DNA from: Mycolicibacterium anyangense
GTDB lineage: Bacteria > Actinomycetota > Actinomycetes > Mycobacteriales > Mycobacteriaceae
NCBI RefSeq assembly: GCF_010731855.1
Contig: NZ_AP022620.1
Span: forward strand, 5,146,001-5,210,000
Direction of reading: 5' to 3'
Length of the DNA: 64,000 bases
The first letter of the stretch is position 1; each line of letters starts with the position of its first letter. The notes under the pieces are model-generated. The model searched no databases. It was not told the origin of the DNA and saw only the letters and a program-made list of their open reading frames with translations. Shown here piece by piece: positions 25,135 to 47,595 of this stretch. The translations under genes and the position numbers were made by a program.

Positions 25135-25682
25135 CCATTGCGGCCACCGTCGCCGGAGACCCCATCGACGTCCGCGATATCGATGCGCGCGAAGCGCTGT
25201 TGCGCACCACACCCCAGGTCGCCGCACTGCCGCGCCCCGGCACCAGCGAGGGTCGCCAACTGCGTCGCTGGCTCACCCAACTGGTGGTGACCGAACGGGT
25301 CATCGCGCGGGAGGCACAGGTGCTGGCAGTGACCGTCGACGCGTCCACCCCGACCGAAGACCACCTCCTCCCTGACCTCACCGCTCGCCTGGAGATCGGC
25401 AGCATCGCAGCCGCGGTGCTCGCCGAACCGCTGGGCCGCGCCGTGTTCGCCCGCGTCACCGCAGACGTCGATGTCGCCGAGTCCGACATCGACGACTACG
25501 CGCAACGCAACCCCGGTCGCTTCCCGGTGCGTCGAGAGCTCGCCGCACATCTGCGCGGCGCCGCCCGTCGTCGCGCCTTCCGGATGTGGCTCGTCTCCCG
25601 CAGCGCCGAACTGGTGTGGCTGGCGCCCGGCTACGAACACCCCGGCGACCCCCGCCAACCCGATAACACCCACAAACACTGA
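25131..25682 (+). CDS. Small SurA/PpiC-N-like protein (DUF7158-like; labelled FabD2 in M. tuberculosis)
   Basis: A 183-residue protein that starts inside the mannosidase stop (ATGA) and whose TGA shares a base with the next ATG, so it is tightly coupled on both sides. In M. tuberculosis the gene at this place (Rv0649) has been called fabD2. Here there is no GHSxG acyltransferase motif and the protein is far too short for FabD. The visible pattern is instead helical: RQLRRWLTQLVVTERVIAREAQ, then DVAESDIDDYAQRNPGRFPVRRELAAHL, then RRRAFRMWLVSRSAELV. This is reminiscent of the N-terminal region of SurA/parvulin-type chaperones. No signal peptide is present. A chaperone or assembly partner for the mannosidase is a guess from context. 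Confidence 0.75.
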   Translation: MTIAATVAGDPIDVRDIDAREALLRTTPQVAALPRPGTSEGRQLRRWLTQLVVTERVIAREAQVLAVTVDASTPTEDHLLPDLTARLEIGSIAAAVLAEPLGRAVFARVTADVDVAESDIDDYAQRNPGRFPVRRELAAHLRGAARRRAFRMWLVSRSAELVWLAPGYEHPGDPRQPDNTHKH

Positions 25683-26587
25683 TGGCCGACACCCTGGTTC
25701 TCGACATCGGTGGCACCAAGATCGCCGCCGGCTTGGTCGACCCCGACGGTCGGCTGACGTTCCAGACCCGCGAACCCACACCGCACTCGCCCGACCCCGA
25801 CGTGGTGTGGGCGGCCGCCCAGCGCACCATCGCCGCGGCGCTCGCCGAAGCGGGGGCAGCGGTGGCCGGTGTGGGGATCTCGTCGGCGGGACCGATCCAC
25901 CTGCCGGACGGAACCATCAGCCCCATCAACATTCCGGCCTGGCGGGGCTTTCCGGTCCGCGACCGGGTGAGCGACGCGGTGCCCGGGGTTCCGGTGCGCC
26001 TCGGCGGCGACGGGGTGTGCATGGCCCTCGGCGAGCATTGGCGCGGCGCCGGCCGCGGCGTGGGGTTCATGCTGGGCATGGTGGTGTCGACCGGCATCGG
26101 GGGTGGTCTGGTCCTGGGCGGCGCGCCCTACAACGGGCGCACCGGCAATGCCGGCCACGTCGGGCACGTCATCGTCGATCCCCAGGGGCCCCCCTGCAGT
26201 TGTGGGGCGCGGGGATGTGTCGAGGCGATCGCCAGCGGACCGCATCTGGCGGCCTGGGCACAGGAACAGGGTTGGGCCGGTGCCGACGCCAAAGAACTGG
26301 CCGAGGCTGCCGCAGCCGGGGATGACATTGCGCGACGCGCGTTCCAGCGGGGGGCCAGCGCCATCGCCGCGATGATCGCCTCGGTCGGGGCGACGTGCGA
26401 CCTGGATCTGGTGGTCGTCGGCGGGGGAGTGGCCAAGGCCGGGCCGGTGCTGTTCGATCCGCTGACCGCTGCGCTGCGCACCTATGCCCGACTGGACTTC
26501 ATCGCCGACCTGCGGGTGGTTCCGGCGGCGCTGGGCGGGGATGCCGGGCTGGTCGGGGCCGCCGCTCTGCTGCGTGGGGCCAGCTGA
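25682..26587 (+). CDS. ROK family sugar kinase / glucokinase-like
   Basis: A 301-residue ROK protein, positionally Rv0650. The ATP-binding LDIGGTKIAAGLVD is at the N-terminus. The catalytic Asp is in VRLGGDGVCMALGE, where typical ROK kinases have DNDANAAA or a variant, so the loop is unusual. GMVVSTGIGGGLVLGG and the ROK signature GNAGHVGHVIVDPQGPPCSCGARGCVEAIASG follow, the last with the zinc-binding His-x-Cys-x-Cys-x4-Cys pattern. It would phosphorylate a hexose released by the upstream mannosidase, for example mannose or glucose. No helix-turn-helix is present, so it is a kinase rather than a repressor. A one-base overlap with the upstream gene shows operon membership. Confidence 0.9.
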   Translation: MADTLVLDIGGTKIAAGLVDPDGRLTFQTREPTPHSPDPDVVWAAAQRTIAAALAEAGAAVAGVGISSAGPIHLPDGTISPINIPAWRGFPVRDRVSDAVPGVPVRLGGDGVCMALGEHWRGAGRGVGFMLGMVVSTGIGGGLVLGGAPYNGRTGNAGHVGHVIVDPQGPPCSCGARGCVEAIASGPHLAAWAQEQGWAGADAKELAEAAAAGDDIARRAFQRGASAIAAMIASVGATCDLDLVVVGGGVAKAGPVLFDPLTAALRTYARLDFIADLRVVPAALGGDAGLVGAAALLRGAS

Positions 26588-26590
26588 GCG

Positions 26591-26648
26591 CGAGCAGCCG
26601 CAAAATCGCACGTTTCGGGCCGTGCTGGTGCGAATTTGCGTCTGCTCG
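26591..26648. repeat. 58-bp intergenic palindrome, copy 1
   Basis: A 20-base arm beginning CGAGCAGCCGCAAAATCGCA, an 18-base loop and the reverse-complement arm ending GCGTCTGCTCG, with two mismatches between the arms. It lies between the convergent ends of the ROK kinase and the DUF559 gene. The loop (26611-26628) is nearly the same as in copy 2. No T-run follows, so it is not a standard intrinsic terminator. Confidence 0.92.
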
Positions 26649-26655
26649 GCGGGGG

Positions 26656-27561
26656 TTACGGCCGTCGAAGATGACGGTCAATGCGTTGAACCAGACGCTG
26701 CGGGTGGCGCCGGATGTCGTCGACCACGATGGGAACGACCGTCCACCCCATTTCTTGCACACCGGCGAACCGTGACTTGTCGCGGATCATCTCCATGCGG
26801 CCGGCGTGCCACTCCACGCTGTCGTATTCAGCTGCGACCCGTGCCTCGGGCCACGCGAAATCGACCCGCCACCGCTCGCCGTCGATCCCGTGGATTGTGT
26901 ACTGCAACTCGGGTCGCGGCAGACCGTGGTCGACCATGATCAGCCGGGCCTCACTCTCCATCGCCGACTCCGCGCGGGCATCTGCGAGCGGCAGCAGGGT
27001 GCGGACCGCTGCTATCCCACGACGGCCGCGCTGGTCGCGGACGGCCTGCTCGAGATCGGCCCTGCCACACCACCCCGAGCGCAGCGCTGCATCGAGAGTG
27101 GCCAGCGCTCGAGGTCTCCTCAGCTGCCGGGCCACCTCCACCGCCGTCCAGGCCGGGGCCGTCGCTCGTCGGCTCGCCACGACGTGCACGGGGGCGCCGG
27201 CACGTTGGTGAACCACCAGTCCGGTGGTCGATCGCGTCCGTGCTCCGCCGTCCAGGATGTGGACCGCCGTCGTGTTTTCGGTGTCGAAGCCATAGAGGGC
27301 CGCTGCGGTTCCCATCGCTGCGACGGTGTCGCGGCCGGTGAGCAGGTCCAGGGCGGCAAGCCGGTGCAGCAGATCGGGCTCGGTCCGGGCGTACACCCCA
27401 TGCCATACCCGGACCAACTTGCCCTTGGCGACCTGAACGTCGAGCTGCTGTCGGGTCATCACAGTGCAGAGTTGGGCTGTGGTGGCCACGCCGCCGGTCT
27501 GCTTGAGCAGAGCGACGGCGTCGGAGAACACGGGAGAAGGATGTGCGATACCGGCCCGCAT
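26656..27561 (-). CDS. DUF559 (Vsr-like nuclease fold) protein with AbiEi-type N-terminus
   Basis: A protein of about 301 residues. The N-terminal half resembles AbiEi antitoxin-type proteins: a winged-helix-like segment (LLKQTGGVATTAQLCTVMTRQQLDVQVAKGKLVRVWHGVYAR) and LGTAAALYGFDT-like repeats. The C-terminal ~100 residues are a DUF559 domain related to Vsr/PD-(D/E)xK nucleases, with RVDFAWPEARVAAEYDSVEWH holding the acidic residues and a following DKSRFAGVQEMGWTVVPI. Many mycobacteria carry several such genes. I take ATG 27561 as the start; extending to 27804 would translate the palindromic repeat copy 2 and is artefactual. It is flanked on both sides by copies of the 58-bp palindrome. No partner toxin gene is visible. 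Confidence 0.82.
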   Translation of the reverse strand: MRAGIAHPSPVFSDAVALLKQTGGVATTAQLCTVMTRQQLDVQVAKGKLVRVWHGVYARTEPDLLHRLAALDLLTGRDTVAAMGTAAALYGFDTENTTAVHILDGGARTRSTTGLVVHQRAGAPVHVVASRRATAPAWTAVEVARQLRRPRALATLDAALRSGWCGRADLEQAVRDQRGRRGIAAVRTLLPLADARAESAMESEARLIMVDHGLPRPELQYTIHGIDGERWRVDFAWPEARVAAEYDSVEWHAGRMEMIRDKSRFAGVQEMGWTVVPIVVDDIRRHPQRLVQRIDRHLRRP

Positions 27562-27598
27562 CCGTGTGCAGCGCGGCTTCACCCTGTGGATAGGGGCG

Positions 27599-27656
27599 CG
27601 AGCAGCCGCAAAATCGCACGTTTCGGGCTGTTCTGGTGCGATTTTGCGTCTGCTCG
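27599..27656. repeat. 58-bp intergenic palindrome, copy 2
   Basis: It has the same architecture as copy 1, with 20-base arms and an 18-base loop, and one arm mismatch (CAGCCGC against GCGTCTG). Its loop (27619-27636) differs from copy 1 at only two positions. It sits just upstream of the DUF559 start and upstream of the rplJ promoter. Confidence 0.92.
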
Positions 27657-27677
27657 CGGGAAGAAGGGGGGAGCGTT

Positions 27678-27707
27678 TTGGCTGATCGCGGGGGATCAGG
27701 CTATTCT
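27678..27707 (+). promoter_or_regulatory. Candidate sigma-A-type promoter of rplJ-rplL
   Basis: TTGGCT at 27678-27683 and TATTCT at 27702-27707 are separated by 18 bases. Together they resemble a housekeeping mycobacterial promoter. Initiation shortly after would give a leader of about 185 bases before rplJ, consistent with a ribosomal-protein leader. Confidence 0.6.
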
Positions 27708-27713
27708 TGTCCA

Positions 27714-27899
27714 GTTCCACCGAAGACCGTCGGTCACCGAGCAATCGGTTGAAGGTCCTGGACATCCAGGCGGCCCACGCAGGAGGACGAGGCTCGACCG
27801 TCATTTTCGTGCGGTTCCTTCACGCCCCGGCCCATCTGCGTCCGGGGCGTTCTTGTATTCCAGGCTCTCCGGCGGTGAAACCATCACGAGGAGGCAAGC
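27714..27899 (+). promoter_or_regulatory. L10 leader with attenuator-like hairpin
   Basis: The untranslated region upstream of rplJ is rich in possible pairings. It should bind L10-(L7/L12)4 for autogenous control, as in other bacteria. At 27823-27849 an 8-base stem (CGCCCCGG with CCGGGGCG, 11-base loop) is followed by TTCTTGT, a terminator-like shape inside the leader. The rplJ ribosome binding site GAGGAGGC lies right before the ATG. Confidence 0.6.
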
Positions 27900-28439
27900 A
27901 TGGCCACAGCTGACAAGGCCACCGCGGTCGCCGACATCGCCGAGAAGTTCAAGGAGGCGACGGCCACCGTCGTCACCGAGTACCGCGGCCTGACGGTGTC
28001 CAACCTTGCCGAGCTGCGCAGGTCGCTGGGTGCTGGTGCGTCGTACACCGTCGCCAAGAACACCCTGGTGAAGCGCGCCGCGTCCGAGGCCGGCATCGAG
28101 GGTCTCGACGACCTGTTCGCCGGACCGACCGCCATCGCGTTCATCAACGGCGAGCCCGTCGACGCTGCCAAGGCGATCAAGAAGTTCGCCAAGGACAACA
28201 AGGCGCTCATCATCAAGGGCGGATACATGGACGGCAAAGCGCTGTCCGTGTCCGAGGTCGAGCGGATCGCCGACCTGGAGTCGCGCGAGGTGCTGTTGTC
28301 GCGCGTCGCCGGCGCCCTGAAGGCGAAGCAGTCCCAGGCCGCGGCGCTGTTCGTGGCGCCCGCGTCCCAGGTCGCGCGCCTGGCCGCAGCTCTGCAAGAC
28401 AAGAAGGCTGCCGACGGTTCAGCAGAACCCGCAGCCTGA
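27900..28439 (+). CDS. rplJ: 50S ribosomal protein L10
   Basis: A 179-residue L10 protein. It forms the base of the L7/L12 stalk on 23S rRNA near the factor-binding centre. The N-terminal rRNA-binding globular domain is evident ([34 protein letters not shown], then [13 protein letters not shown], then [10 protein letters not shown]). The C-terminal helix that carries L7/L12 dimers ([20 protein letters not shown], then [13 protein letters not shown]) ends in a short Ala/Gly-rich tail. Start ATG 27900 follows a strong GAGGAGGC site. It is followed by rplL after 37 bases. Confidence 0.98.
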
Positions 28440-28476
28440 TCAATCCACCCCCAACCCATCAAGAAAAGGAACCACC

Positions 28477-28866
28477 ATGGCAAAGCTGTCCACCGAAGAG
28501 CTCATCGACGCCTTCAAGGAACTGACCCTGCTCGAGCTCTCTGAGTTCGTGAAGGTGTTCGAGGAGACCTTCGACGTCACCGCGGCCGCTCCGGTCGCCG
28601 TTGCTGCCGCCCCGGGTGCCGCTGGCGCTCCGGCCGAGGCCGCCGAAGAGCAGTCCGAGTTCGACGTCATCCTCGAGGGTGCCGGCGACAAGAAGATCGG
28701 CGTCATCAAGGTCGTCCGCGAGATCGTCTCCGGCCTGGGCCTGAAGGAAGCCAAGGATCTGGTCGACGGCGCTCCCAAGCCGCTGCTCGAGAAGGTCACC
28801 AAGGAAGCCGCCGAGGATGCCAAGGGCAAGCTCGAGGCCGCTGGCGCGACGGTCACCGTCAAGTAA
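28477..28866 (+). CDS. rplL: 50S ribosomal protein L7/L12
   Basis: A 129-residue L12. The N-terminal dimerisation domain is [32 protein letters not shown], followed by an Ala/Pro-rich hinge ([20 protein letters not shown]). The C-terminal factor-binding domain is [47 protein letters not shown], with the conserved Lys/Val surface contacting EF-Tu and EF-G. It recruits translational GTPases. Start ATG 28477 is preceded by AAAAGGA. A strong terminator follows 14 bases after the stop, so mkl needs its own promoter. Confidence 0.98.
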
Positions 28867-28880
28867 TTCCAGCTTCCACG

Positions 28881-28923
28881 AATCCCCCGCGGGCCATTGC
28901 GCCCGCGGGGGATTTCGTTTTTT
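28881..28923 (+). terminator. Intrinsic terminator after rplL
   Basis: A perfect 14-base stem (arms 28881-28894 and 28901-28914, core CCCCCGCGGGC) with a 6-base loop is followed by TCG and six T. It lies 14 bases after the rplL stop. Confidence 0.93.
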
Positions 28924-29053
28924 GGGCAGAGAGTTCACTGATCGATCACGGGTAGGCACACAAAGTGAGTGGCTGCCAATCTCGTGCGCTACAGTGACTC
29001 AAACCACAGGTCGTCGAGCCAGTGGTACTTGGGTGTGGGCGGAAGGATCTCGC

Positions 29054-30103
29054 GTGGGCATTGGTATTCAGGTCGAGGGATTGACCAAGTCGTTCGGTTC
29101 TCAGCGCATCTGGGAAGACGTGACGTTGGACATCCCGGCGGGCGAGGTCAGCGTGCTGCTCGGTCCGTCCGGTACCGGTAAGTCGGTGTTCCTCAAGTCG
29201 CTGATCGGTCTGCTGCGCCCCGAGCGCGGCAAGATCATCGTCGACGGCACCGATATCATCCAGTGCTCGGCCAAGGAGCTCTACGAGATCCGCACCCTGT
29301 TCGGCGTCATGTTCCAGGACGGTGCGCTGTTCGGCTCGATGAACATCTACGACAACACCGCCTTCCCGCTTCGTGAGCACACGAAGAAGAAGGAGAGCGA
29401 GATCCGTCAGATCGTCATGGAGAAGCTCGACATGGTGGGCCTCGGTGGCGACGAGAACAAGTTCCCCGGCGAGATCTCCGGCGGTATGAAGAAGCGCGCC
29501 GGTCTGGCCCGCTCGCTGGTGCTCGACCCGAAGATCATCCTCTGCGACGAGCCCGACTCCGGTCTGGACCCGGTGCGTACCGCCTACCTGAGCCAGCTGC
29601 TCATCGACATCAACGCCCAGATCGACGCCACGATCCTGATCGTGACGCACAACATCAACATCGCTCGCACCGTGCCGGACAACATGGGCATGCTGTTCCG
29701 CAAGCACCTGGTGATGTTCGGCCCGCGTGAGGTGCTGCTGACCAGCGAGGAACCCGTGGTCAAGCAGTTCCTCAACGGCCGCCGCATCGGCCCCATCGGC
29801 ATGTCCGAGGAGAAGGACGAGTCGACGATGGCCGAGGAGCAGGCGTTGGCCGACGCCGGTCACCACGACGGCGGTGTGGAAGAGATCGAAGGTGTGCCGC
29901 CGCAGATCCAGGCCACCCCGGGTCTCCCCGAGCGCAAGGCCGTCGCCCGCCGCCAGGAGCGGGTGCGCCAGATCCTGCACACGTTGCCGCCGGCGGCCCA
30001 GGAAGCGATCCGCGACGACCTGGACGGCACCCACAAGCTGCCGACCCACACGTTCGCCGGCGAGCCCGCGCACGCCGCGCACGCCGAGGACGCCACCAGC
30101 TGA
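29054..30103 (+). CDS. mkl: Mkl ABC-transporter ATPase (Mce lipid import)
   Basis: A 349-residue ATP-binding subunit homologous to MlaF/Mkl. It powers Mce transporters that import lipids such as cholesterol and fatty acids. Walker A is GPSGTGKSVFLKS, the signature is EISGGMKKRAGLARSLV, Walker B is IILCDEPDSGLDP and the switch His is in VTHNINIA. The C-terminal ~90 residues are an Mkl-specific extension. GTG 29054 has GGAAGGA six bases upstream, so I choose it; the frame is open further 5' but would run into the rplL terminator. A candidate -10 TACAGT lies at 28990-28995. The gene is followed by a strong terminator. Confidence 0.94.
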   Translation: MGIGIQVEGLTKSFGSQRIWEDVTLDIPAGEVSVLLGPSGTGKSVFLKSLIGLLRPERGKIIVDGTDIIQCSAKELYEIRTLFGVMFQDGALFGSMNIYDNTAFPLREHTKKKESEIRQIVMEKLDMVGLGGDENKFPGEISGGMKKRAGLARSLVLDPKIILCDEPDSGLDPVRTAYLSQLLIDINAQIDATILIVTHNINIARTVPDNMGMLFRKHLVMFGPREVLLTSEEPVVKQFLNGRRIGPIGMSEEKDESTMAEEQALADAGHHDGGVEEIEGVPPQIQATPGLPERKAVARRQERVRQILHTLPPAAQEAIRDDLDGTHKLPTHTFAGEPAHAAHAEDATS

Positions 30104-30141
30104 GGCTCGGCGACCGTCCTGGTTGCCGTTCACCCCGCTCG

Positions 30142-30180
30142 AGCCGGGACGACGCGCTTGCGTCGTCCCGGCTATTTTTT
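30142..30180 (+). terminator. Intrinsic terminator after mkl
   Basis: A perfect 14-base stem (30142-30155 with 30160-30173, core GCCGGGACGACGC) and a four-base loop are followed by ATTTTTT. It starts 39 bases after the mkl stop. Confidence 0.94.
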
Positions 30181-30296
30181 GGCCTCCGCCGGTCTGACCA
30201 ACTTATGACGTGTCCGCTCGGCACAACGGATTCCGTGTACCGAATGCCGTTGTTGTGAGTACGTTTCCGACATCGTCAATAGAGAGGCTGAGGTGG

Positions 30297-33200
30297 ATGG
30301 CGGAGCGACGCGTCTTGCTGGGCACGGGTGCAGTGGTCGTCGGATTGGGTGCGGCCCTGCTGGCCGGGTCGGGGGCGGCGCACGCCGACGGCACCGACGA
30401 CGGCTCGGGCAATCAGCAATCGTCGAGCGGCTCGTCGGCCTCGAGCGGTAAAGCCACCGGCGGCAGCAAGCGCGCGTCGAAGAGCGCTACCGGGCCCAAG
30501 TCGGCAGCTGCCAATTCCGACCGCAAGTCCCCGCGGACCTCCCTCGACAGCCAGACGACCAAGGCCACCACCCCGTCCACCACAACGCCATCGACGCCAT
30601 CGACCACCAAGACCGGCACCGCCACTGAGCAGGACACCGAGCAGTCCGCGACCCCGGCTGCCGGCGTCACCACCACCTCGTCGACCAGCGCTGCGGTGGA
30701 CACCGGCGCGAGCGCCGCGCCTCAGACCGTCCCGGTATCGGTGGCCGTCGGCACGTCGCGGCGAGCCGCCGAGGCCGCTGCCCGCCAGGCCCAGATCAAC
30801 CAGATCCTCGCCTCGGCCGGCACCATCACCGCCAGTGCGAGCTCCACCGCCGCGCCCACCTCGGGCCTGCTGGCCACCGCGATGCTCAACCTGCTCTCCG
30901 GTCTGGGCGTCGCACCCAGGAGCGCCGCCCCCACCGAGCCGTCGGCGCCGGTGACGAGTTCGGCGCCCCTGCTGCCCACCGACAGCAACGGGGTCACCGG
31001 CGTACTTGTCGGCCATTCCCGGCTGGAGCTCCCGGGTGCCTTCATCGGACAGACCGTCGCCGCCGACTGGTACTTCCCGACCCAGGCCGACGGCAGCGTC
31101 GACGCCCAGGGCGTGATCTGGCTGCAGCACGGCTTCGCCGCGACGAACACCTTCTACTCTGCGCTGGCCCAGAACCTGGCCCAGCAGACCAACAGCATCG
31201 TGGTCGCCCCCACCTTGTCGTCCATCCCGATCACCTTCTCCGGCGGCTGCCTCACCTGTGAGGTCACCCAGCAGGACGCCGCGGCACTGCTGGGCCCGGA
31301 CCGCGCGACATTGTTGGCCAGTGCGACCGCGGCCGGATTCACCGGCACCGCCCTGCCGGAGCGCTTCGTGCTGGCCGGCCACTCGGCGGGCGGCGGCTTC
31401 GCCACCGCGGTGGCCGACGACTACCTGGAAGGCAACGACAGCCAGTACGACCCCAATGACCTGGTCGGCGTGGTGATGTTCGACGGCGTCTCCAACGGAT
31501 CCCTGGACGGGGCGTTCGCCACCCAGGTGTCGACGCTGGCCGCCGCGGGCAAGCCGATCTACCAGATCGCCGCCCCGGCGCAGAGCTGGAATCTGTTCGG
31601 CGCCACCACCAATGTGCTGGCCGCGACCCTGCCCGGACAGTTCATCGGCGTCGTGCTCCAAGGTGGCTCGCACGTGGACTCCATGCTCGGGGTCAACCCG
31701 CTCTTCGACTTCGTCCTGCAGCTGGTGACCAAGGCCGTACCCGCGGGCAACACCCAGGCCGTCTACACGCTGTCCGACGGCTGGATCAACGACATGTACT
31801 CCGGGGCGACCCCGCAGACCCCCAAGTACGGGCTCTACGCCGCCTCGAATCAGCAGATCATCATGGGACCGACCGCGGCCGTCGGGCTGCCCGCGGCCGA
31901 GGCCAATCAGCTGTCGTTCGGTGATTACCTCGTCAAGGCACTGATCGACACCGTCGGCGGAATCTTCGGATTCCACCTTCCGGCCCCGGTCAACGGCGGC
32001 AACAACGGGCTGAACCCCAACACCCCGGTCGCCACCGTCGGCAACGGTGTCACCGGCGTGCGCACCGGATCGTCGGTGCTCGACATCCCCGCGGGGCAGA
32101 ACGGCTACGCCGCCCCGGCCGACTGGTACTTCCCGACCCAGGCCGACGGCACCGTGCAGGCCAACGGCGTGATCTGGCTGCAGCACGGCTTCCTCGGCTT
32201 CAAGGACTGGTACGCCAGCATGGCCCAGGAACTGGCCCAGCAGACCAACAGCATCGTCGTGGTGCCGAACATCTTCTGGTTCGACAACCCGCTGTGCCCC
32301 GGCTGCTACCTCGGCGGTGCGGTGATGCGCCAAGCCGTCGCCTCGATGTTCCAGGACAGTCGCTCGGCGCTGAACATCAGCGCCAACGCCGCCGGCTTCC
32401 AAGGCACGCTGCCGGCGAAGTTCCTGCTCACCGGGCACTCGGCGGGCGGCAACTTCGCCACCGCCGTCGGCGCGCTGATCACCGACACCCCCCAGAAGGA
32501 CAACCTGATGGGCGTGGTGATGTTCGACGGAGTGTCGCGCAACCCGCTGTTCACCGACTCATTGCAGGCGCTGTACAACGCCGGCATCCCGGACTATCAG
32601 ATCGCCGCACCGCCGCAGTCGTGGAACGCCTACGGCGTGGCCACCGAACTGATGCAGTTGTTCTACGGGCCGAAGGGTCTGTTCTACGGGGTGCAGATCG
32701 ACAACGGTTCGCACACCGACGTCATCGCAGGCAACAACCTGTTTGCCTGGCTCGGTGAGATTGCCAGCTCGATCATCGTGCGGCCGTCACCGCCGGGCGG
32801 CAAGGACGCGGTGCGCACCTTCGCCTCGGGCTGGATCAACGACATCTATGCAGGTAAAGGCCCCACCGACCCGGTCTACGGGATCTACGGCAACCCCAAC
32901 GACGGCACCTATGTCCAGAACCAGCCGATCGTGATGGGTCAGGCCGGGGCCACCACGCTGCCCGCCCCGCCGCCGGTGAACGTCACCGAGTACGCCAACG
33001 GCCAACCCTGGTATGAGCAGGGCAGTGTCAAGCTGCCGTTCGCCTGGGGGCTGGTGAACACCACCGCGGTCTACACGCTGAACTCCGACGGCACGGTCAA
33101 GGTGCAGAACTCGGGCAACTACTTCGGTCCCAACGGCCCACTGTCCCAGATCACCGGGACCGCGGTGTCGGTCAACCCGGCCTTCAACACCCGCTTGGAC

Positions 33201-33437
33201 GTGGGCTTCTTCGGCAGCACGCCGAGCAGCGCCGAACCCGGCAACTATTGGATTCTCGATTACGACCCGAACTACCAGTGGGTGATCGTCAGTGACCCGA
33301 CGAGCTTCTCCGGCTACATCCTGACCCGGGACAAGACCATCTCCGACACGCAGTACGACACCCTTGTCACGCGGGCTCGCCAGCTCGGCGTCTGGGGGCC
33401 GATCACCCGGACCCAGCAATACCCGACCACGCTCTAG
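30297..33437 (+). CDS. Secreted tandem alpha/beta-hydrolase protein with C-terminal lipocalin domain
   Basis: A protein of about 1046 residues. A signal peptide ends near Ala30 (GLGAALLAGSGAAHA). Next comes a Ser/Thr/Lys/Pro-rich linker to about 230. Two homologous hydrolase units follow, both beginning NGVTGV (Gly232 and Gly584) and sharing ADWYFPTQADG, GVIWLQHGF and LAQQTNSIVV. Their nucleophile elbows are GHSAGGG (Ser363) and GHSAGGN (Ser715), and the matching His residues lie in GGSHVDS and NGSHTDV. From about 894 to the end is a Blc-like lipocalin (PWYEQGSVKLPFAWG at its N-terminal strand, WILDYDPNYQWVIVSDP, GYILTRDKTISDTQYDTL). The likely role is extracytoplasmic ester or lipid hydrolysis with lipid binding. 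ATG 30297 is preceded by a GAGG site; a start at 30210 would put 29 extra residues before the signal peptide. Confidence 0.85.
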   Translation: MAERRVLLGTGAVVVGLGAALLAGSGAAHADGTDDGSGNQQSSSGSSASSGKATGGSKRASKSATGPKSAAANSDRKSPRTSLDSQTTKATTPSTTTPSTPSTTKTGTATEQDTEQSATPAAGVTTTSSTSAAVDTGASAAPQTVPVSVAVGTSRRAAEAAARQAQINQILASAGTITASASSTAAPTSGLLATAMLNLLSGLGVAPRSAAPTEPSAPVTSSAPLLPTDSNGVTGVLVGHSRLELPGAFIGQTVAADWYFPTQADGSVDAQGVIWLQHGFAATNTFYSALAQNLAQQTNSIVVAPTLSSIPITFSGGCLTCEVTQQDAAALLGPDRATLLASATAAGFTGTALPERFVLAGHSAGGGFATAVADDYLEGNDSQYDPNDLVGVVMFDGVSNGSLDGAFATQVSTLAAAGKPIYQIAAPAQSWNLFGATTNVLAATLPGQFIGVVLQGGSHVDSMLGVNPLFDFVLQLVTKAVPAGNTQAVYTLSDGWINDMYSGATPQTPKYGLYAASNQQIIMGPTAAVGLPAAEANQLSFGDYLVKALIDTVGGIFGFHLPAPVNGGNNGLNPNTPVATVGNGVTGVRTGSSVLDIPAGQNGYAAPADWYFPTQADGTVQANGVIWLQHGFLGFKDWYASMAQELAQQTNSIVVVPNIFWFDNPLCPGCYLGGAVMRQAVASMFQDSRSALNISANAAGFQGTLPAKFLLTGHSAGGNFATAVGALITDTPQKDNLMGVVMFDGVSRNPLFTDSLQALYNAGIPDYQIAAPPQSWNAYGVATELMQLFYGPKGLFYGVQIDNGSHTDVIAGNNLFAWLGEIASSIIVRPSPPGGKDAVRTFASGWINDIYAGKGPTDPVYGIYGNPNDGTYVQNQPIVMGQAGATTLPAPPPVNVTEYANGQPWYEQGSVKLPFAWGLVNTTAVYTLNSDGTVKVQNSGNYFGPNGPLSQITGTAVSVNPAFNTRLDVGFFGSTPSSAEPGNYWILDYDPNYQWVIVSDPTSFSGYILTRDKTISDTQYDTLVTRARQLGVWGPITRTQQYPTTL

Positions 33438-33516
33438 GCCCGAATGACGCGGTCGAAGTTTTCCACACCAAACACCGCGTTATCCCTTGACGGAAAGGCG
33501 CAAACGGTCCAGTCTG

Positions 33517-33611
33517 TTGACCAGCATGTGTGCGTGGGTAGCTAGTTCGCCAGCCAGCGCCAGCAGACCCAGCATGCGGTTGTTGAGGAATGCGCCGTTC
33601 TGCGCTATTGT
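33517..33611 (+). promoter_or_regulatory. Candidate promoters of rpoB-rpoC in a 388-base leader region
   Basis: The gene-free stretch from 33438 to 33825 contains two promoter-like pairs. The stronger is TTGAGG (33583-33588), a 17-base spacer and TATTGT (33606-33611). A weaker one is TTGACC (33517-33522) with TAGCTA (33539-33544) after 16 bases. The stronger pair predicts an untranslated leader of about 210 bases. No gene is seen in the stretch. Confidence 0.65.
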
Positions 33612-33807
33612 TGGACGTTGCGCTGGCTGCCTCCTGCCCACCTCAACCCGCACCTGACACCGTGGTCCACGTCTGAGCCAAGACTTCCAGCTCAGAGACC
33701 TATTTGCGTGCCGTGTGCGTCGGGGACAGGCCCGGTCCTTGAGGACGCCAGCCTGAACCGACGCAGATCTCGCGGCGTACCGGAGGTTCTCCGGGTAGTC
33801 GCATTAG

Positions 33808-37305
<3,498 letters not shown>

Positions 37306-37318
37306 TTAGTGTTTCTAG

Positions 37319-41299
<3,981 letters not shown>

Positions 41300-41312
41300 T
41301 CACGAACGAAAT

Positions 41313-41340
41313 AGCCCCCGGGTTCGCCCGGGGGCTTTTT
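41313..41340 (+). terminator. Intrinsic terminator after rpoC
   Basis: A 10-base perfect stem (AGCCCCCGGG with CCCGGGGGCT) closed by a TTCG tetraloop is followed by TTTTT. It lies 13 bases after the rpoC stop. Confidence 0.95.
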
Positions 41341-41381
41341 CGTTGCGATGAATTCGGCAACCGGCCGCGGTCTACTTACCT

Positions 41382-42026
41382 GTGACCCAACTGCTCAGAG
41401 TTCAGAACTTCATGCTGTCGCGCGACGGGTTCGGCGCCGGGCTCAACCAGTGCTTGCAACGTCCGTTCGGCGATGCCGACCAGCCGGCCCTGTTCGCGTG
41501 GGTGGGCGCGACGGCGAGTTGGGTGGGACGCCGCGAGCCCGGCGGTGACCGCGGCCTCGACGACTACTTCACCCGTGACTACTTCAACAACATCGGCGCG
41601 GAGATCATGGGCCGCAACAAGTTCAGTCCCTACCGCGGCCCGTGGGACGACCACCCCGACTGGCAGGGGTGGTGGGGCGAGGAGCCGCCGTTCCACACCC
41701 CGGTGTTCGTGATGTCCCACCACGCGCGGCCAGCGTTGACCTTGTCCGATACCACCTTCCATTTCGTTTCCGGTGATCCGGCGAGTGTCCTGGAACAGGC
41801 CAAGGATGCGGCCGACGGCAAGGACGTCCGGCTCGGCGGCGGGGCGAGCACCGTCCGGCAATTCCTCGACGCCGGCCTGGTCGACACGCTGCACGTGGCG
41901 GTCGCCGACGTGGAGATCGGAGCCGGCTCGCGGCTGTGGGAATCGCCGGACGAACTCGATGATCGCTACCGCCACGAGGTGGTGCCCAGCCCCAGCGGTG
42001 TGATCCATCACCTTTTCTGGCGCTGA
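41382..42026 (+). CDS. Dihydrofolate-reductase-fold / RibD C-terminal-like protein
   Basis: A 214-residue protein of the RibD-C/DHFR-like superfamily, common as small flavin- or NADPH-linked reductases. It has the opening [60 protein letters not shown], and the NADPH-binding [30 protein letters not shown]. It is not a canonical folate enzyme and the substrate is unknown. The start could be GTG 41382 or the ATG at 41412. It has no operon partner: the rpoC terminator lies upstream and palindrome copy 3 downstream. Confidence 0.88.
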
Positions 42027-42031
42027 CGTTT

Positions 42032-42089
42032 CGAGCAGACGCAAAATCGCACTGGCAGAGTCATTTTCGTGCGATTTTGCGTCTGCTCG
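42032..42089. repeat. 58-bp intergenic palindrome, copy 3
   Basis: Perfect 20-base arms (CGAGCAGACGCAAAATCGCA and its reverse complement) surround an 18-base loop (42052-42069) unlike those of copies 1 and 2. It lies between the reductase-like gene and end, five bases after the former's stop. Confidence 0.95.
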
Positions 42090-42148
42090 CCGATGGCGGC
42101 GGTCGGCCGGGGAGGCGCAGCCTGGCGGCCCCGCCTAGACTGGCCGAC

Positions 42149-42904
42149 GTGCTGATCGGCTCCCATGTTCGCTCCGACAACCCGCTGGCCGGGGCATTGG
42201 ACGACGAGGCCGACGCGGTGCAGTTCTTCCTCGGTGACCCGCAGAGCTGGAAGAAACCGAAGCCCCGCGAGGACGCCGACATGCTGCGCCGCTCGCCGAT
42301 CCCGCTCTATGTCCACGCCCCGTACCTGATCAACGTGGCCTCGGCCAACAACCGGGTGCGCATTCCGTCGCGCAAGATCCTGCAGGACACCTGCGACGCC
42401 GCCGCCGAGGTCGGTGCGACCGCGGTGATCGTGCACGGCGGCCACGCCGACGACAACGACATGGAGGCCGGCTTCGAGCGCTGGGTCAAGGCGCTGGCTC
42501 AACTGCAGACCGACGTGCCGGTGTACCTGGAGAACACCGCGGGCGGCGACCACGCCATGGCGCGCCATTTCGACACCATCGGCCGGTTGTGGGACCGCAT
42601 CGGCGACACCGGCATCGGGTTCTGTCTGGACACCTGCCACGCCTGGGCGGCCGGCGAGGAGCTGATCGACGCCGTCGAGCGGATCAAGGCGATCACCGGC
42701 CGCATCGACCTGGTGCACTGTAACGACTCCCGCGACGCCAAAGGTTCCGGCGCCGACCGGCACGCCAATTTCGGCGCCGGACAGATCGATCCGCAGCTGC
42801 TGGTGGCCGTGGTCACCGCGGCGGGTGCACCGGTGATCTGCGAGACGGCCGACGACGGCCGCAAGAACGACATCGCCTTCCTCCGCGACAACGTGCCGGG
42901 TTGA
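42149..42904 (+). CDS. end: Endonuclease IV (AP endonuclease)
   Basis: A 251-residue TIM-barrel AP endonuclease of the Nfo family, equal in place to Rv0670 (end). It cuts the backbone 5' of abasic sites and removes 3'-blocking groups in base-excision repair. Zinc-site motifs are visible: [81 protein letters not shown] and [11 protein letters not shown]. The start is GTG 42149 (MLIGSH), matching the conserved N-terminus. An earlier start would overlap the tail of the palindrome. Its stop overlaps the region of the lpqP start, so the two are probably one transcript. Confidence 0.95.
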
Positions 42905-42906
42905 GG

Positions 42907-43749
42907 ATGCGGAGCCGAGTCGTCGCGCTGCTGGGGATCCTGTTCCTCGTCTCCGCCTGCGCCGCGTCCGGATTGGCCGCCCCGGCTCCGTTCACGCCCG
43001 GGGCCACCGCACACACCATCTCGGTCGGCGGCCTCGATCGCACCTATCGGCTCTACCTGCCCGCCGGCCTGCCCCCGGCAGCGCCGCTGGTGGTCATGCT
43101 GCACGGCGGCTTCGGCAGCGCCGATCAAGCCGAACGGTCCTACGGCTGGAATCAACTGGCCGAGCAGGCCAAGTTCGTCGTCGCCTATCCCGACGGACTG
43201 AATCGAGCGTGGAACTCCGGGGGAGGATGCTGCGGGCGCCCCGGCCGCGACAACGTCGACGACGTCGCCTTCATCACCGCCGCGGTGCGCGACATCGCGG
43301 GCAACATCGGCATCGACCCCACCAGGATCTACGCCACCGGCATCAGCAACGGCGGCATGATGGCTTACCGACTCGCCTGCACCACAGCGGTTTTCGCGGC
43401 GATCGGGCCCGACTCGGCTACCCAGCTCGACAGCTGCTCAGCGCCGTCGCCGACCTCGGTCATCCATGTCCACGGCACCGGCGATCGGATGATCCGCTAC
43501 GACGGCGGACCCGGTGCCGGCATCGCCAACATCGACGGTCCACCGGTGCCTGATGTCAACGCCTTCTGGCGTGGTGTCGACCAGTGCGCGCCGCCGGCGG
43601 TGACGGTCAACGGTGCACTGACCACATCGACGGCGAACTGCCCGAGCGGGCGAAGCGTCGAGTTGATCACCGTCGCCGGCGGCGGTCACGAGTGGCCGCC
43701 GTTCGCGACACAGACGATCTGGGATTTCTTCGCCGCGCATCCGCGCTGA
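42907..43749 (+). CDS. lpqP: Lipoprotein LpqP, PHB-depolymerase/feruloyl-esterase-like hydrolase
   Basis: About 280 residues. The N-terminus MRSRVVALLGILFLVSAC is a lipoprotein signal with lipobox Val-Ser-Ala-Cys, so it is exported and lipid-anchored. The mature part is an esterase of the LpqC/poly-hydroxybutyrate depolymerase type. It has LVVMLHGGFGSADQAE (oxyanion), the nucleophile motif TGISNGGMMAYRLAC, HVHGTGDRMIRYDGG (acid) and the final His in GGGHEWPP. It matches Rv0671 by position. A TTG six bases upstream could also start translation and overlaps the end stop codon. It is convergent with the FUSC gene with only a one-base gap. Confidence 0.88.
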   Translation: MRSRVVALLGILFLVSACAASGLAAPAPFTPGATAHTISVGGLDRTYRLYLPAGLPPAAPLVVMLHGGFGSADQAERSYGWNQLAEQAKFVVAYPDGLNRAWNSGGGCCGRPGRDNVDDVAFITAAVRDIAGNIGIDPTRIYATGISNGGMMAYRLACTTAVFAAIGPDSATQLDSCSAPSPTSVIHVHGTGDRMIRYDGGPGAGIANIDGPPVPDVNAFWRGVDQCAPPAVTVNGALTTSTANCPSGRSVELITVAGGGHEWPPFATQTIWDFFAAHPR

Positions 43750-43750
43750 G

Positions 43751-44893
43751 TCAGGGCTGGTCACCGGCGGTGCGCAGGTGCTCGCTGTCGGTACCACTGA
43801 TGGTGAGAGCGCCTACGACGATGCCGACGACGACGCCCACCAGCGTGTCGAGAACCCGGTCGACGGCCGCTGCGGGTGTCAAGCCTGCGCCAATGCCGGT
43901 GAGCAGCAACGCCATCGGAGTCACGGCCAGTGAGGTCAAGGCATAGTTGACGGTCGAGGCGATCTCGGCGCAGACCTGGAAGACGACGATGGCAGCGGCA
44001 GTGCCCCAGTACCCGAGCGGCAGGGCCAGTAGACCAGCGGCCAGCAACGCACCACCGATATTGCCCAGCAGACGTTGCACACCGCGGTGGACCGCGACGT
44101 GATAGGCCACGCCCTGCATGGTGGCCACCGCGCCCATCGCCGCCCACATGTAGTGGGGCAGGCCGAAGGCGAGCGCGACGGCCGCGCCGAGGGCGCCCGC
44201 GATGGTGATCCGAGCGCTGCTCGTGACCAGCGTGGAATGCGGCGCGCGCAGCAGCGTGACCGCGATCGATTCGCGGCGGGCAGGGTGAGAGCCGGTGGTC
44301 GCGGCGGGCCGCCCGGTCGCTGCGCGCCACGTCAGGTTCAGCAGCCAGGGCGCCAGTGCGGCGATCATCCCAGTCACGGTGCCGATGGCGCACGCCAGTA
44401 CTGCGTGCGCGACATCGCCGGTGGTGCGGGCGAAGGCCTCGGCACCGACCGCGCCGAAGACGAACACCACCGCACCGGGGCCGACGATGTGCAGGGCAGA
44501 GACGAAAAATGCTGCGGCTCCAGCGATCAGGGCGATCACCACGACGCTGACGGCCGCCGAAGCGCTGCTCGCGCCCAACGCTGCGCCGGCCGCGATCGAC
44601 GAGATGATCATGATGCTGAGGACGACGAGCCGGCCGACGCGAACCGGATAGGGATCGGGCCGGCAGAACGCTGCGACCAGAGCACCGAGGGCGGCGAACC
44701 CGGCCACGTCGTGGTGACCGGTCAATCCGCCAAGCACGAACATCAGGGCCACCGCGGCACCGACCCGCAGGGGTACGGCCACTCCGGCTTTGCGCAGGTC
44801 GCCGTTGAGGGCGCCGCGCCAGGTCGTCGGCCGGACCGCGTGGCGCAGCGCGCGGTACGTGGGGCCGAGCTGCTGAGCGAGCGAAGCGGGCAT
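43751..44893 (-). CDS. FUSC-family membrane transporter
   Basis: A 380-residue integral membrane protein with about 8-10 helices in two clusters of hydrophobic segments (for example AAVALMFVLGGL, LVVLSIMIISSIAAGAALGA, ALIAGAAAFFVSALHIVGPGAVVFVFGAV and VNYALTSLAVTPMALLLTG). The ending GVVVGIVVGALTI is typical of the FUSC/aromatic-acid-exporter-like families (YccS, AaeB, FusC type). Such proteins export small aromatic or organic compounds. It is divergent from a MarR regulator across a 58-base gap containing a near-palindrome, strongly suggesting MarR-controlled efflux. The start ATG is 44893. The substrate is unknown. Confidence 0.87.
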   Translation of the reverse strand: MPASLAQQLGPTYRALRHAVRPTTWRGALNGDLRKAGVAVPLRVGAAVALMFVLGGLTGHHDVAGFAALGALVAAFCRPDPYPVRVGRLVVLSIMIISSIAAGAALGASSASAAVSVVVIALIAGAAAFFVSALHIVGPGAVVFVFGAVGAEAFARTTGDVAHAVLACAIGTVTGMIAALAPWLLNLTWRAATGRPAATTGSHPARRESIAVTLLRAPHSTLVTSSARITIAGALGAAVALAFGLPHYMWAAMGAVATMQGVAYHVAVHRGVQRLLGNIGGALLAAGLLALPLGYWGTAAAIVVFQVCAEIASTVNYALTSLAVTPMALLLTGIGAGLTPAAAVDRVLDTLVGVVVGIVVGALTISGTDSEHLRTAGDQP

Positions 44894-44910
44894 CGAGATA
44901 ATTTATCACT

Positions 44911-44926
44911 ATTTTACTAGTGAAAT
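44911..44926. promoter_or_regulatory. Candidate MarR operator between FUSC and MarR genes
   Basis: ATTTTACTAGTGAAAT is a 16-base near-palindrome (14 of 16 positions symmetric, ACTAGT core) in an AT-rich 58-base divergent gap within a GC-rich genome. Size and symmetry fit MarR-family operators. On the minus strand the same bases give TAAAAT, a possible -10 for the transporter gene. Confidence 0.65.
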
Positions 44927-44951
44927 GATTCGTCGTGCTTAGGATGGCCGG

Positions 44952-45461
44952 GTGTCCAGACGTGTCGAAGCCAGTGCGCTCAGCGACACCGTGGATCGGA
45001 TTCGCTCGGAATGGGCGGCGGCCTACCCGCACCTCGATACGGCGCCCATCGACATCCTGGGGCGGATCCAGCGCATCGCCTCGATCTGCAGCCAACGGCT
45101 CGATTCGAACCTGGAACGGCACGGCGTGACGCGCTCCGAGTTCGCCGTGCTCGGCGCGCTGGCCCGGGTCGATCGCCCGCTTCGGGCCAGCGAAGTCGTC
45201 TCCACAACGTTGCTCAGCGGGGCATCGGTGACCAAGATCGCCGACAGCCTCGCCGGCCGGGGACTACTGGAACGGCAGAAGTCCGAGCGGGACGGACGGG
45301 TGGTCCTGCTCGCGCTCACTGATGCCGGACGGGCGGTGGTCGACACCGAGATGCCTCGCCGCCTTGCCGACGACGAGGCGATGATCGCCGGTCTCACCGA
45401 TGCAGAGCGAGCCACCCTCGCCGGTCTACTCCGGAGGATCTGCGCGACGCTCGGCGACTGA
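44952..45461 (+). CDS. MarR-family transcriptional regulator
   Basis: A 169-residue winged-helix regulator. Helices around the DNA-binding domain read RHGVTRSEFAVLGALARVDRPLRASEVVSTTLLSGASVTKIADSLAGRGLLERQ, with the wing KSERDGRVVLLALTDAGRAVV. A C-terminal dimerisation helix closes it. GTG 44952 follows an AGGA seven bases upstream. It is divergent from the FUSC transporter and should repress it until a phenolic or similar ligand binds. Its 3' end meets the cupin gene convergently. Confidence 0.93.
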   Translation: MSRRVEASALSDTVDRIRSEWAAAYPHLDTAPIDILGRIQRIASICSQRLDSNLERHGVTRSEFAVLGALARVDRPLRASEVVSTTLLSGASVTKIADSLAGRGLLERQKSERDGRVVLLALTDAGRAVVDTEMPRRLADDEAMIAGLTDAERATLAGLLRRICATLGD

Positions 45462-45478
45462 ACCCGCACGTGTCGGAG

Positions 45479-45826
45479 TCAGGTCAGATACACCTTGCGC
45501 AGCGTCTCGGTGACTGTCCATACCGTGCGCGCTCCCTCGGCCAGTCGCACCACGTCACCTGGGCCCAGTGTCATGGTGGGGGTGTCGTCGTCGAACTCGA
45601 CGGTCGCCGCACCGGTCAGCACGACGAACAGTTCGTCGGCCTCGACATCACTCATCACTCCGGGCGTCATCTCCCAGACCCCGACCTCGAGTCCGCCGAA
45701 CCGGCCGAGTTCGGCGACACCGGTGTGCGGGCTGCCGCCGTGTGACTGCTCGGCGGGCACCGGCTCGTGCTCGAGCCACTGGCTGGACGCGTGGACCACG
45801 GAGTTCAGCTTCACGGCAATCAGCAT
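45479..45826 (-). CDS. Cupin-fold protein (DUF861-type)
   Basis: A 115-residue single-domain cupin. Beta-strand motifs are GVWEMTPGVMSDVEADELFVVLTGAATVEFDD and TMTLGPGDVVRLAEGARTVWTVTETLRKVYL. This is the pattern of the (S)-ureidoglycine-aminohydrolase-like Cupin_3 family, with the metal-site positions in the first motif partly replaced by acidic residues. The function cannot be assigned. It is divergent from the acyl-CoA dehydrogenase gene with about 50 bases between them. Confidence 0.85.
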   Translation of the reverse strand: MLIAVKLNSVVHASSQWLEHEPVPAEQSHGGSPHTGVAELGRFGGLEVGVWEMTPGVMSDVEADELFVVLTGAATVEFDDDTPTMTLGPGDVVRLAEGARTVWTVTETLRKVYLT

Positions 45827-45876
45827 GCCATATTACGGTTCTTGTGCGACTGTCCGAAAAATGTAACAGTGGTGGA

Positions 45877-47505
45877 ATGTCGGACACGCATGTCGTCACC
45901 AACCAGGTCCCCCCGCTGGTGGACCACAATCCGGCTAACTCGCCGGTCCTCATCGAGGCACTGATCCGCGAAGGCGGGCAGTGGGGGCTCGAGGAGGTCA
46001 CCGAGCTCGGGGCCCTGGCCGGCAGCGCCCAGGCCCAGCGCTGGGGTGATCTGGCCGATCGCAATCAGCCGATCCTGCATACCCATGACCGCTACGGGTA
46101 CCGGGTCGACGAGATCGAATACGACCCCGCCTATCACGAGCTGATGCGCACGGCGATCGCCCACGGTGTGCACGCCGCCCCGTGGGCCGACGAGCGTCCG
46201 GGCGCCCACGTGGTCCGGGCGGCGAAGATGGGGGTGTGGACGCCCGAGCCCGGGCACGTCTGCCCGATCTCGATGACCTACGCCGTCGTCCCCGCGCTGC
46301 GGCACAACCCGGAGCTGGCCGCCGTCTACGAGCCGCTGCTGACCAGTCGCGAGTACGACCCGGAGCTGAAAGTGCCTGCCACCAAGGCGGGCATCACCGC
46401 CGGGATGTCGATGACCGAGAAGCAGGGCGGCTCCGACGTTCGCGCCGGCACCACCCAGGCCGTACCCAACGGCGACGGCAGCTACTCGCTGACCGGCCAC
46501 AAGTGGTTCACCTCGGCGGCAATGAGCGACATCTTCCTGGTGCTCGCCCAGGCGCCCGGCGGATTGAGCTGTTTCATGCTGCCGCGGGTGCTGCCCGACG
46601 GCAGCCGCAACCGGATGTTCATCCAGCGGCTCAAGGACAAGCTGGGTAATCACGCCAACGCCTCCAGTGAGATCGAATACGACGGCGCGGTGGCGTGGCT
46701 GGTCGGCGAGGAGGGCCGCGGTGTGCCGACCATCATCGAGATGGTCAACCTGACCCGGCTGGACTGCACACTGGGCAGTGCCACCAGCATGCGCAACGGC
46801 CTGACGCGGGCGGTTCATCACGCCCAGCATCGAAAGGCGTTCGGCGCCTACCTGATTGATCAACCGTTGATGCGCAACGTGCTGGCCGACCTCGCGGTCG
46901 AGGCGGAGGCCGCCACGATCGTCGCGATGCGGATGGCCGGCGCCACCGACGCGGCCGTTCGTGGCGACGAGCGGGAGACACTACTGCGGCGGATCGGCCT
47001 GGCAGCGTCCAAGTACTGGGTGTGCAAGCGGGCCACCCCGCACGCCGGTGAGGCGATGGAGTGCCTGGGCGGCAACGGCTACGCCGAGGAATCCGGCATG
47101 CCGCGGCTCTATCGCGAGGCGCCGCTGATGGGGATCTGGGAGGGCTCGGGCAACGTCAGCGCGCTGGACACGTTGCGCGCCATGGCAACTCGGCCCGAAT
47201 GCATCGCCGTGCTGTTCGACGAACTGGCGACCACCGCCGGTCAAGACGCCAGGCTCGACGTCCATGTCGCCACGCTTCGGGCCGAACTGGGGGATACCGA
47301 CGCCGTCGAGTACCGGGCCCGCAAGGTCGCCGAGGACATCTGCCTGGCATTGCAGGGCTCGCTGCTGGTGCGTCATGGCCATCCCGCAGTGGCCGAGGCG
47401 TTCCTGGCGACCCGGATGGGCGGCAACTGGGGCGGCGCGTTCGGCACCCTGCCCACCGGATTGGACCTCGCACCGATCCTGGAGCGCTGCCTGGTGAAGG
47501 GATGA
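45877..47505 (+). CDS. fadE8: AidB-like acyl-CoA dehydrogenase FadE8
   Basis: A 542-residue flavoprotein. The first residues, MSDTHVVTNQVPPL, are what I recall of Rv0672 (FadE8), and the synteny agrees. AidB-subfamily features are GAHVVRAAKMGVWTPEPGHVCPISMTYAVVPALR, MSMTEKQGGSDVRAGTT (FAD binding), GHKWFTSAAMSDIFLVLAQ, RLKDKLGNHANASSEIEYDGAVAWLVGEEGRG and the C-terminal APLMGIWEGSGNVSALDTLRAM. AidB proteins respond to alkylation in other bacteria. In this operon a CoA-linked substrate oxidation with the following crotonases is equally likely. I choose ATG 45877; the frame is open upstream but crosses the divergent promoter. Confidence 0.93.
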   Translation: MSDTHVVTNQVPPLVDHNPANSPVLIEALIREGGQWGLEEVTELGALAGSAQAQRWGDLADRNQPILHTHDRYGYRVDEIEYDPAYHELMRTAIAHGVHAAPWADERPGAHVVRAAKMGVWTPEPGHVCPISMTYAVVPALRHNPELAAVYEPLLTSREYDPELKVPATKAGITAGMSMTEKQGGSDVRAGTTQAVPNGDGSYSLTGHKWFTSAAMSDIFLVLAQAPGGLSCFMLPRVLPDGSRNRMFIQRLKDKLGNHANASSEIEYDGAVAWLVGEEGRGVPTIIEMVNLTRLDCTLGSATSMRNGLTRAVHHAQHRKAFGAYLIDQPLMRNVLADLAVEAEAATIVAMRMAGATDAAVRGDERETLLRRIGLAASKYWVCKRATPHAGEAMECLGGNGYAEESGMPRLYREAPLMGIWEGSGNVSALDTLRAMATRPECIAVLFDELATTAGQDARLDVHVATLRAELGDTDAVEYRARKVAEDICLALQGSLLVRHGHPAVAEAFLATRMGGNWGGAFGTLPTGLDLAPILERCLVKG

Positions 47506-47523
47506 TCGCGGTGGTCGTGACGC

Positions 47524-47581
47524 CGAGCAGACGCAAAATCGCATGAATTCGGCTCCGATGATGCGATTTTGCGTCTGCTCG
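47524..47581. repeat. 58-bp intergenic palindrome, copy 4
   Basis: Perfect 20-base arms identical to copy 3 surround a different 18-base loop (47544-47561). It sits between fadE8 and echA4, ending 14 bases before the echA4 start. Confidence 0.95.
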
Positions 47582-47595
47582 CAGGAAGGGTGACC

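Follow-up and report, generated by a model that had tools for sequence, protein, structure and literature searches.

The window analyzed here, a 64,000-nucleotide stretch of the Mycolicibacterium anyangense genome (contig NZ_AP022620.1, positions 5,146,001 to 5,210,000), carries four 58-bp palindromes, two of which bracket a single gene coding for an AbiEi-like/Vsr-type nuclease. These palindromes are probably the cognate sites of that nuclease, the bracketed gene forming with its two palindromes a unit of about 1.07 kb that is acquired or lost in one piece, and the solitary copies (solos) being dispersed sites. The palindrome-gene-palindrome layout recurs with different repeats in many distant relatives, and palindrome similarity tracks nuclease similarity. 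Binding, cutting and mobility by the nuclease are what we infer from the comparisons below.

A previous reading of the window from its letters alone (the sequence-only reading) had reported the four palindromes, and all were found at the positions given in Table 1, each made of a 20-nt arm, an 18-nt middle and a second 20-nt arm. With up to three mismatches allowed, the arm motif has eight matches in the window, which form four inverted pairs, against an expectation of 0.01, and none of 100 shuffles reached eight. The perfect and identical arms described for copies 3 and 4 were borne out by the sequence; the stem of copies 1 and 2 carries a C/T mismatch, copy 1 has one more, and the middles of these two copies differ at 2 of 18 positions. 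All four palindromes fold as RNA into strong hairpins, with energies between -31 and -39.9 kcal/mol and z between -4.6 and -8.9, and independent gene calls agree that they are intergenic. The claimed lack of a T-run holds outside the stem but not inside it, where TTTT (AATTT in copy 1) occurs in every 3' arm, facing AAAA in the 5' arm.

Table 1. Coordinates of the palindromes, the cassette and its neighbours, counted from the first letter of the window
Feature	Position	Strand	Description
Palindrome copy 1	26591..26648		58 bp; downstream cassette end; 7 bp past the nuclease stop, 3 bp past the ROK-gene stop
Palindrome copy 2	27599..27656		58 bp; upstream cassette end; called nuclease start 67 bp away
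Palindrome copy 3	42032..42089		solo; 5 bp past RibD_C-domain gene (41382-42026); AP_endonuc_2 gene (42149-42904) next
Palindrome copy 4	47524..47581		solo; 18 bp past acyl-CoA dehydrogenase (AidB_N-domain) gene, 8 bp ahead of enoyl-CoA hydratase start
Putative cognate nuclease gene	26656..27531	-	291 amino acids; N-terminal AbiEi-like DNA-binding region, C-terminal Vsr/MTES_1575-type PD-(D/E)XK nuclease
Whole palindrome-nuclease-palindrome cassette	26591..27656		1066 bp; missing as a block in G283 and G294; present in G240
ROK-family gene	25682..26587	+	left neighbour of the cassette
Ribosomal protein L10 gene (rplJ)	27900..28439	+	right neighbour of the cassette

The sequence-only reading had suggested repeats spread by a transposase. 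Their repeat nature stands, but the nuclease gene between copies 1 and 2 had been overlooked. This association is not peculiar to the window: the 29 best homologues of the nuclease from other genomes are 69-80% identical to it; each has a palindrome of the family beside the gene, and 24 have one on both sides, giving cassettes of 1066-1102 bp. Palindrome-rich genomes also tend to encode the enzyme, which is present at E <= 1e-60 in 37 of the 39 genomes with at least five palindromes (counts read by eye) versus 228 of the 353 others. The two exceptions, G051 and G258, have 12 and 5 exact-arm palindromes, respectively, which may be orphans.

The layout was then compared across the wider nuclease family by aligning the left flank of each gene with its right flank in both orientations, with a score threshold of 19 and with mismatched loci and control genes as checks. 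The genome of the window (5.70 Mb, one contig) encodes 13 homologues, the window's gene included, and 9 of them (8 of the 12 paralogues) have matching flanks, as do 33 of 36 other loci of the genus and 11 of 19 usable loci of other genera, one more locus outside the genus having been dropped because its right flank was too short. The same score is reached by only 6 of 369 control genes. Four of these are apparent tandem paralogues, which we take, from their sequence, to resemble kasA/kasB; one (L063) lies between two palindromes of the family, and one (L110) is unexplained.

The flanking repeats are in many cases palindromic, with a length of about 45-90 bp and a family-specific sequence; in L259, L267 and L272, however, they are not clearly palindromic. 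When the left repeat of one cassette was compared with the right repeat of another, similarity climbed with nuclease identity, from almost no similar pairs below 50% to all pairs above 80%. Several of the 12 paralogues (L206-L217) have flanking palindromes of their own (CGAGCGTCAC, TTGATCCAGAAC, TTTCACGTTT and others), and each of these could be a separate enzyme-palindrome pair.

The sequence-only reading would have been refuted by a family limited to these four copies; instead, 15 paired copies were counted in the genome, and the genus has hundreds. The genome has 36 arm matches with at most three mismatches in one arm, corresponding to 15 inverted pairs and 6 unpaired arms, 5 of which are at the three-mismatch limit. 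All 15 pairs measure 56 bp without the outermost C/G, i.e. 58 bp, and since the search asked for no partner arm, it cannot itself have produced this constant spacing. Among these copies the arms are 92% identical, and the inner 16 bases of the middle 45%, compared with 31% after shuffling; the middle is thus not random, and its outer positions pair above expectation. Conservation of the arms merely through recent copying was considered and rejected, as the middles have drifted down to 45% identity with the arms still at 92%. The earlier proposal of selection on the paired arms, with a fixed length and a variable middle, is supported, and we judge right the description of the elements as similar to repetitive extragenic palindromic (REP) sequences or miniature inverted-repeat transposable elements, with a protein or a structure as the alternative target.

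The fixed length extends to the genus. A scan of one genome per species, with gaps of 10-40 allowed, gave 78 stretches, all titled Mycobacterium or Mycolicibacterium, in which the pattern took its 52-bp form in 74, 51 bp in 3 and 53 bp in 1. An exact-arm pair is present in 129 of 396 genomes of the genus, with a maximum of 54 in one genome, and a reversed control pattern gave none in the same scan. The standard length is found in 97 of 102 distinct elements, while 3 fall short of it by one base and 2 exceed it by one; a later set of 130 elements has 119 of standard length, 7 shorter by one base, and 2, 1 and 1 longer by one, two and three bases. These sets come from the best 30 loci per genome search, and most elements were retrieved by their exact arms, which overestimates arm conservation and leaves length unbiased. 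The outer part of the arm, GAGCAGACGCAAAA, is common to the whole genus, and the inner part is lineage-specific (TCGCA, GCCCCC, CTGCCC), usually still pairing. Immediately beside the element, position 1 is G in 191 of 202 flanks and position 2 is C in 155.

Other families behave similarly. The second, CGAGCGTCAC, measures 56 bp at 32 of 32 sites (46-66 bp allowed), and one further element, found with a mismatch allowed, has 51 bp instead; the CGAGCGTGCGTG family has 58 bp in 40 and 59 bp in 13 of 53 cases (46-70 bp allowed). Outside mycobacteria, the CGAAGTAGCACACAA family (68-98 bp allowed) measures 81 bp in 22 of 30 and 82 bp in 8 of 30 elements of G500, and 82 bp in 9 of 15, 91 bp in 4 and 92 bp in 2 elements of G511. 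The length classes of G511 (L329 and following), 82 and 91-92 bp, are separated by a step of 9-10 bp, about one helical turn. A low-abundance family has three exact 55-bp copies in G435, two of which are the cassette pair, and none in G452.

A comparison with related species indicates that the cassette behaves as a block. At the ROK-rplJ site, G240 has it at the same place, and in G283 and G294 the ROK gene is directly followed by the stretch upstream of L10, with neither nuclease nor palindrome. At the junction between rpoC and AP_endonuc_2, a solo is found in the genome of the window (G000), G283 and G294, and a full cassette in G166, whose right palindrome occupies the corresponding place ahead of the downstream gene. 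In three species (L041, L055 and L081) the same gene, presumably AccD6-like and located beside kasA/kasB-like genes, has a cassette at its 3' end. This shared position in three species indicates that some insertions are old and stable.

Solos vary in the same way. Orthologues of copy 3 occur as solos in G283 and G294, where the middle has been inherited and is equally long; the site has no palindrome in G240 or in 11 more distant loci with a readable spacer. The G283 orthologue (L199, 19802-19857) has several arm mismatches, and G283 is without a close nuclease at E <= 1e-60; from this one case, arms may decay in the absence of the enzyme. Copy 4 is present only in G000. At its site (window 47506-47589; L200, L202 and L203), G283, G294 and G240 carry a different palindrome-like sequence beginning with CGAGTGTGCG, as if this gene end had exchanged one palindrome family for another. 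Outside the window, 4 of 11 solos were comparable, the other seven having no single fetched stretch of G283 or G294 with both flanks: G294 has an empty site in one case, and in the three others an element occurs in G283 or G294, degenerate in one of them. No target-site duplication was recognisable at empty sites, where the flanks of the relatives are just ~80-89% identical.

Copying between places is directly visible in two cases, which do not point to the enzyme responsible. In its middle, a G000 solo at 5037639 matches copy 2 at 19 of 20 bases, while the orthologue of this solo in G283 agrees with it at 15 of 20. G087 has a contig on which two copies of the third family, separated by 4.6 Mb, have the same sequence throughout their 59 bases.

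The predicted protein offers a possible reason for the fixed length. Its structure model has a PD-(D/E)XK topology with I-Bth0305I and Vsr as the nearest folds, and MTES_1575 matches at E <= 0.01 in 33 of 44 aligned nuclease proteins; Asp224 and Glu235 are conserved, and a search of NCBIfam gave no useful family. For the N-terminal region, PMC7319586 describes two AbiEi monomers that occupy a pair of 23-bp inverted repeats separated by 3 bp, bending the DNA, and the protein Rv2827c that binds repeat pairs 13 bp apart, 59 bp in total. A 58-bp palindrome with a free middle would be what such a pair of domains needs, and this is the best available account of a fixed length with a drifting middle, a combination that favours recognition of double-stranded DNA rather than of RNA. 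One AbiEi-type domain would recognise each arm in double-stranded DNA, which would fix the spacing of the arms and leave the sequence between them free. The nuclease would nick or cut at the palindrome, thereby dispersing solos and, more rarely, the whole unit. Solos copied elsewhere would survive right downstream of stop codons as non-autonomous elements, and may be kept there because a palindrome with an A-tract, a hairpin and a T-tract between convergent genes could serve as a bidirectional terminator.

The placement of the elements is in fact strongly biased. With genes called by a codon-usage gene finder trained on the window rather than taken from annotation, 72 of 130 elements lie between convergent genes, 44 between tandem and 5 between divergent ones, 3 overlap a gene call and 6 are too close to an end. 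Among 210 control gaps of at least 70 bp without an element, 12 are convergent, 116 tandem and 82 divergent, although these gaps come from the same loci and their shortage of convergent cases is partly due to the elements occupying them. For the 121 classified elements, this amounts to a convergent excess with p 2e-27 and a divergent deficit with p 5e-14. Elements begin close behind the stop codon, at a median distance of 12 bp (interquartile range 7-19; 188 gene ends), and three further palindrome families also lie behind stop codons, with medians of 21.5, 15 and 11.5 bp in small samples of 12, 22 and 16. Such placement fits both a tolerated site and use as a bidirectional terminator.

This bias, together with the strong hairpins, would also be expected if the palindromes were solely bidirectional intrinsic terminators, horizontally arrived genes such as the nuclease being bracketed by chance. 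However, we regard this as unlikely. Terminators require neither a fixed total length nor an invariant stem, and both are kept here while the middle drifts; the palindrome sequence varies with the nuclease family; matching repeats rarely bracket control genes; and nothing T-rich follows the hairpin, the TTTT lying inside the 3' arm. A terminator-like conserved hairpin of this kind, TRIT, was reportedly described at M. tuberculosis gene 3' ends by Gardner et al. in 2011 (RNIE), as a terminator only and with no partner gene. TRIT may be the same hairpin family as the 58-bp palindromes, and the earlier statement that no described mycobacterial family with this sequence was known is possibly wrong. 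The TRIT work is cited in PMC3526491.

A homing mechanism, in which the nuclease cuts a solo and repair copies the cassette in, the solo being the empty target and the palindrome-nuclease-palindrome block the occupied one, appears improbable. The closest solved fold to the nuclease is the catalytic domain of a homing endonuclease, the PADLOC homing-endonuclease profile matches weakly at residues 211-274 (E 0.0013), and the solo-versus-cassette difference at the rpoC junction is what homing would leave. However, both cassette palindromes are intact, so that insertion would leave the site unprotected from the enzyme if the palindrome is where it cuts, two relatives have neither cassette nor solo at the ROK-rplJ site, and the RibD_C upstream gene may be present or absent at the rpoC junction, so that these sites are not strictly the same. 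I-Bth0305I itself, a Vsr-fold homing endonuclease, shares 18% identity with the protein, which differs from it in not lying within an intron or intein, in its AbiEi-like region joined to the nuclease and in its two intact flanking palindromes.

It is very improbable that the palindromes are operators through which the nuclease represses itself, with the scattered copies as regulon or titration sites and no mobility: the upstream palindrome does lie 48-89 bp ahead of the start codon in ten measured loci, and AbiEi and Rv2827c each control their own expression through paired inverted repeats whose total length is comparable (PMC7319586), but a second palindrome lies behind the gene, solos follow stop codons and are rare in divergent promoter gaps, and the block is present or absent whole. 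The protein also differs from the AbiEi antitoxins of type IV toxin-antitoxin systems in its nuclease domain and in the lack of an adjacent AbiEii nucleotidyltransferase toxin gene, the neighbours of the cassette being the ROK and ribosomal L10 genes.

The cognate-site reading brings the system closest to the REPtrons (TnpA-REP/RAYT). As described in PMC8266576, these share a nuclease gene bordered by palindromes, intergenic solos of the same sequence that outnumber the gene, and a palindrome that changes together with its enzyme. However, the enzyme here is a PD-(D/E)XK nuclease with an AbiEi-like region and not an HUH tyrosine enzyme, no GTAG stands beside the palindrome in the 202 flanks, the elements measure 55-92 bp with a family-specific fixed length instead of the 20-50 nt of REPs (same source), and relatives differ in having or lacking the gene block itself. 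Because of the unrelated enzyme, the missing GTAG and the longer, fixed-length palindromes, we do not file the system as a REPtron.

Database and literature searches gave few further hints. No Rfam 15 family reached its gathering score in the window, and weak matches to microRNA precursors were dismissed as merely long hairpins. Among plasmids, 93 records match a 301-bp stretch partly, none over 80%, and the best 20 of the 93 match mostly on the flanking gene; a palindrome of the 58-bp type lies between convergent genes on a Mycobacterium ulcerans plasmid (NZ_CP083743.1; L168, 3001-3059). Phages gave 200 partial matches at E up to 10, 169 of them to mycobacteriophage records, and the 58-bp element alone gave one weak match at E up to 1, to a faecal phage. 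Viral contigs contain 24 stretches with one exact arm each, and in one of them (L133, 4012-4068) an exact arm lies within a loose 57-bp palindrome of the 58-bp type. The 16-mers of the arm were absent from the open-licence literature, and its 11-mers occurred there in ten papers, one of them mycobacterial judging by its title. A link between nuclease and palindrome was not found in that literature, which excludes most subscription journals. PMC10245118 gives a WhiB3-binding probe upstream of pks3 in M. tuberculosis H37Rv whose forward primer includes CTTTTGCGTCTGCT, a portion of one arm, and this probe may start inside a copy of the 58-bp family.

Taken more broadly, and more tentatively, the system may represent a widespread and unnamed actinobacterial mobile element, in which an AbiEi-Vsr nuclease moves its own palindromic site via double-stranded DNA, which exists as many enzyme-palindrome pairs, and which would be the source of many mycobacterial gene-end hairpins now read as terminators. 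If true, a partner enzyme, and hence a handle, would be available for a large repeat class found in mycobacteria and other actinobacteria, and nucleases now catalogued as hypothetical, DUF559 or very-short-patch-repair proteins would gain a role. It would also predict which protein binds which palindrome, and with what spacing, and would add to the HUH enzymes of REPtrons a second, unrelated solution to the same problem.

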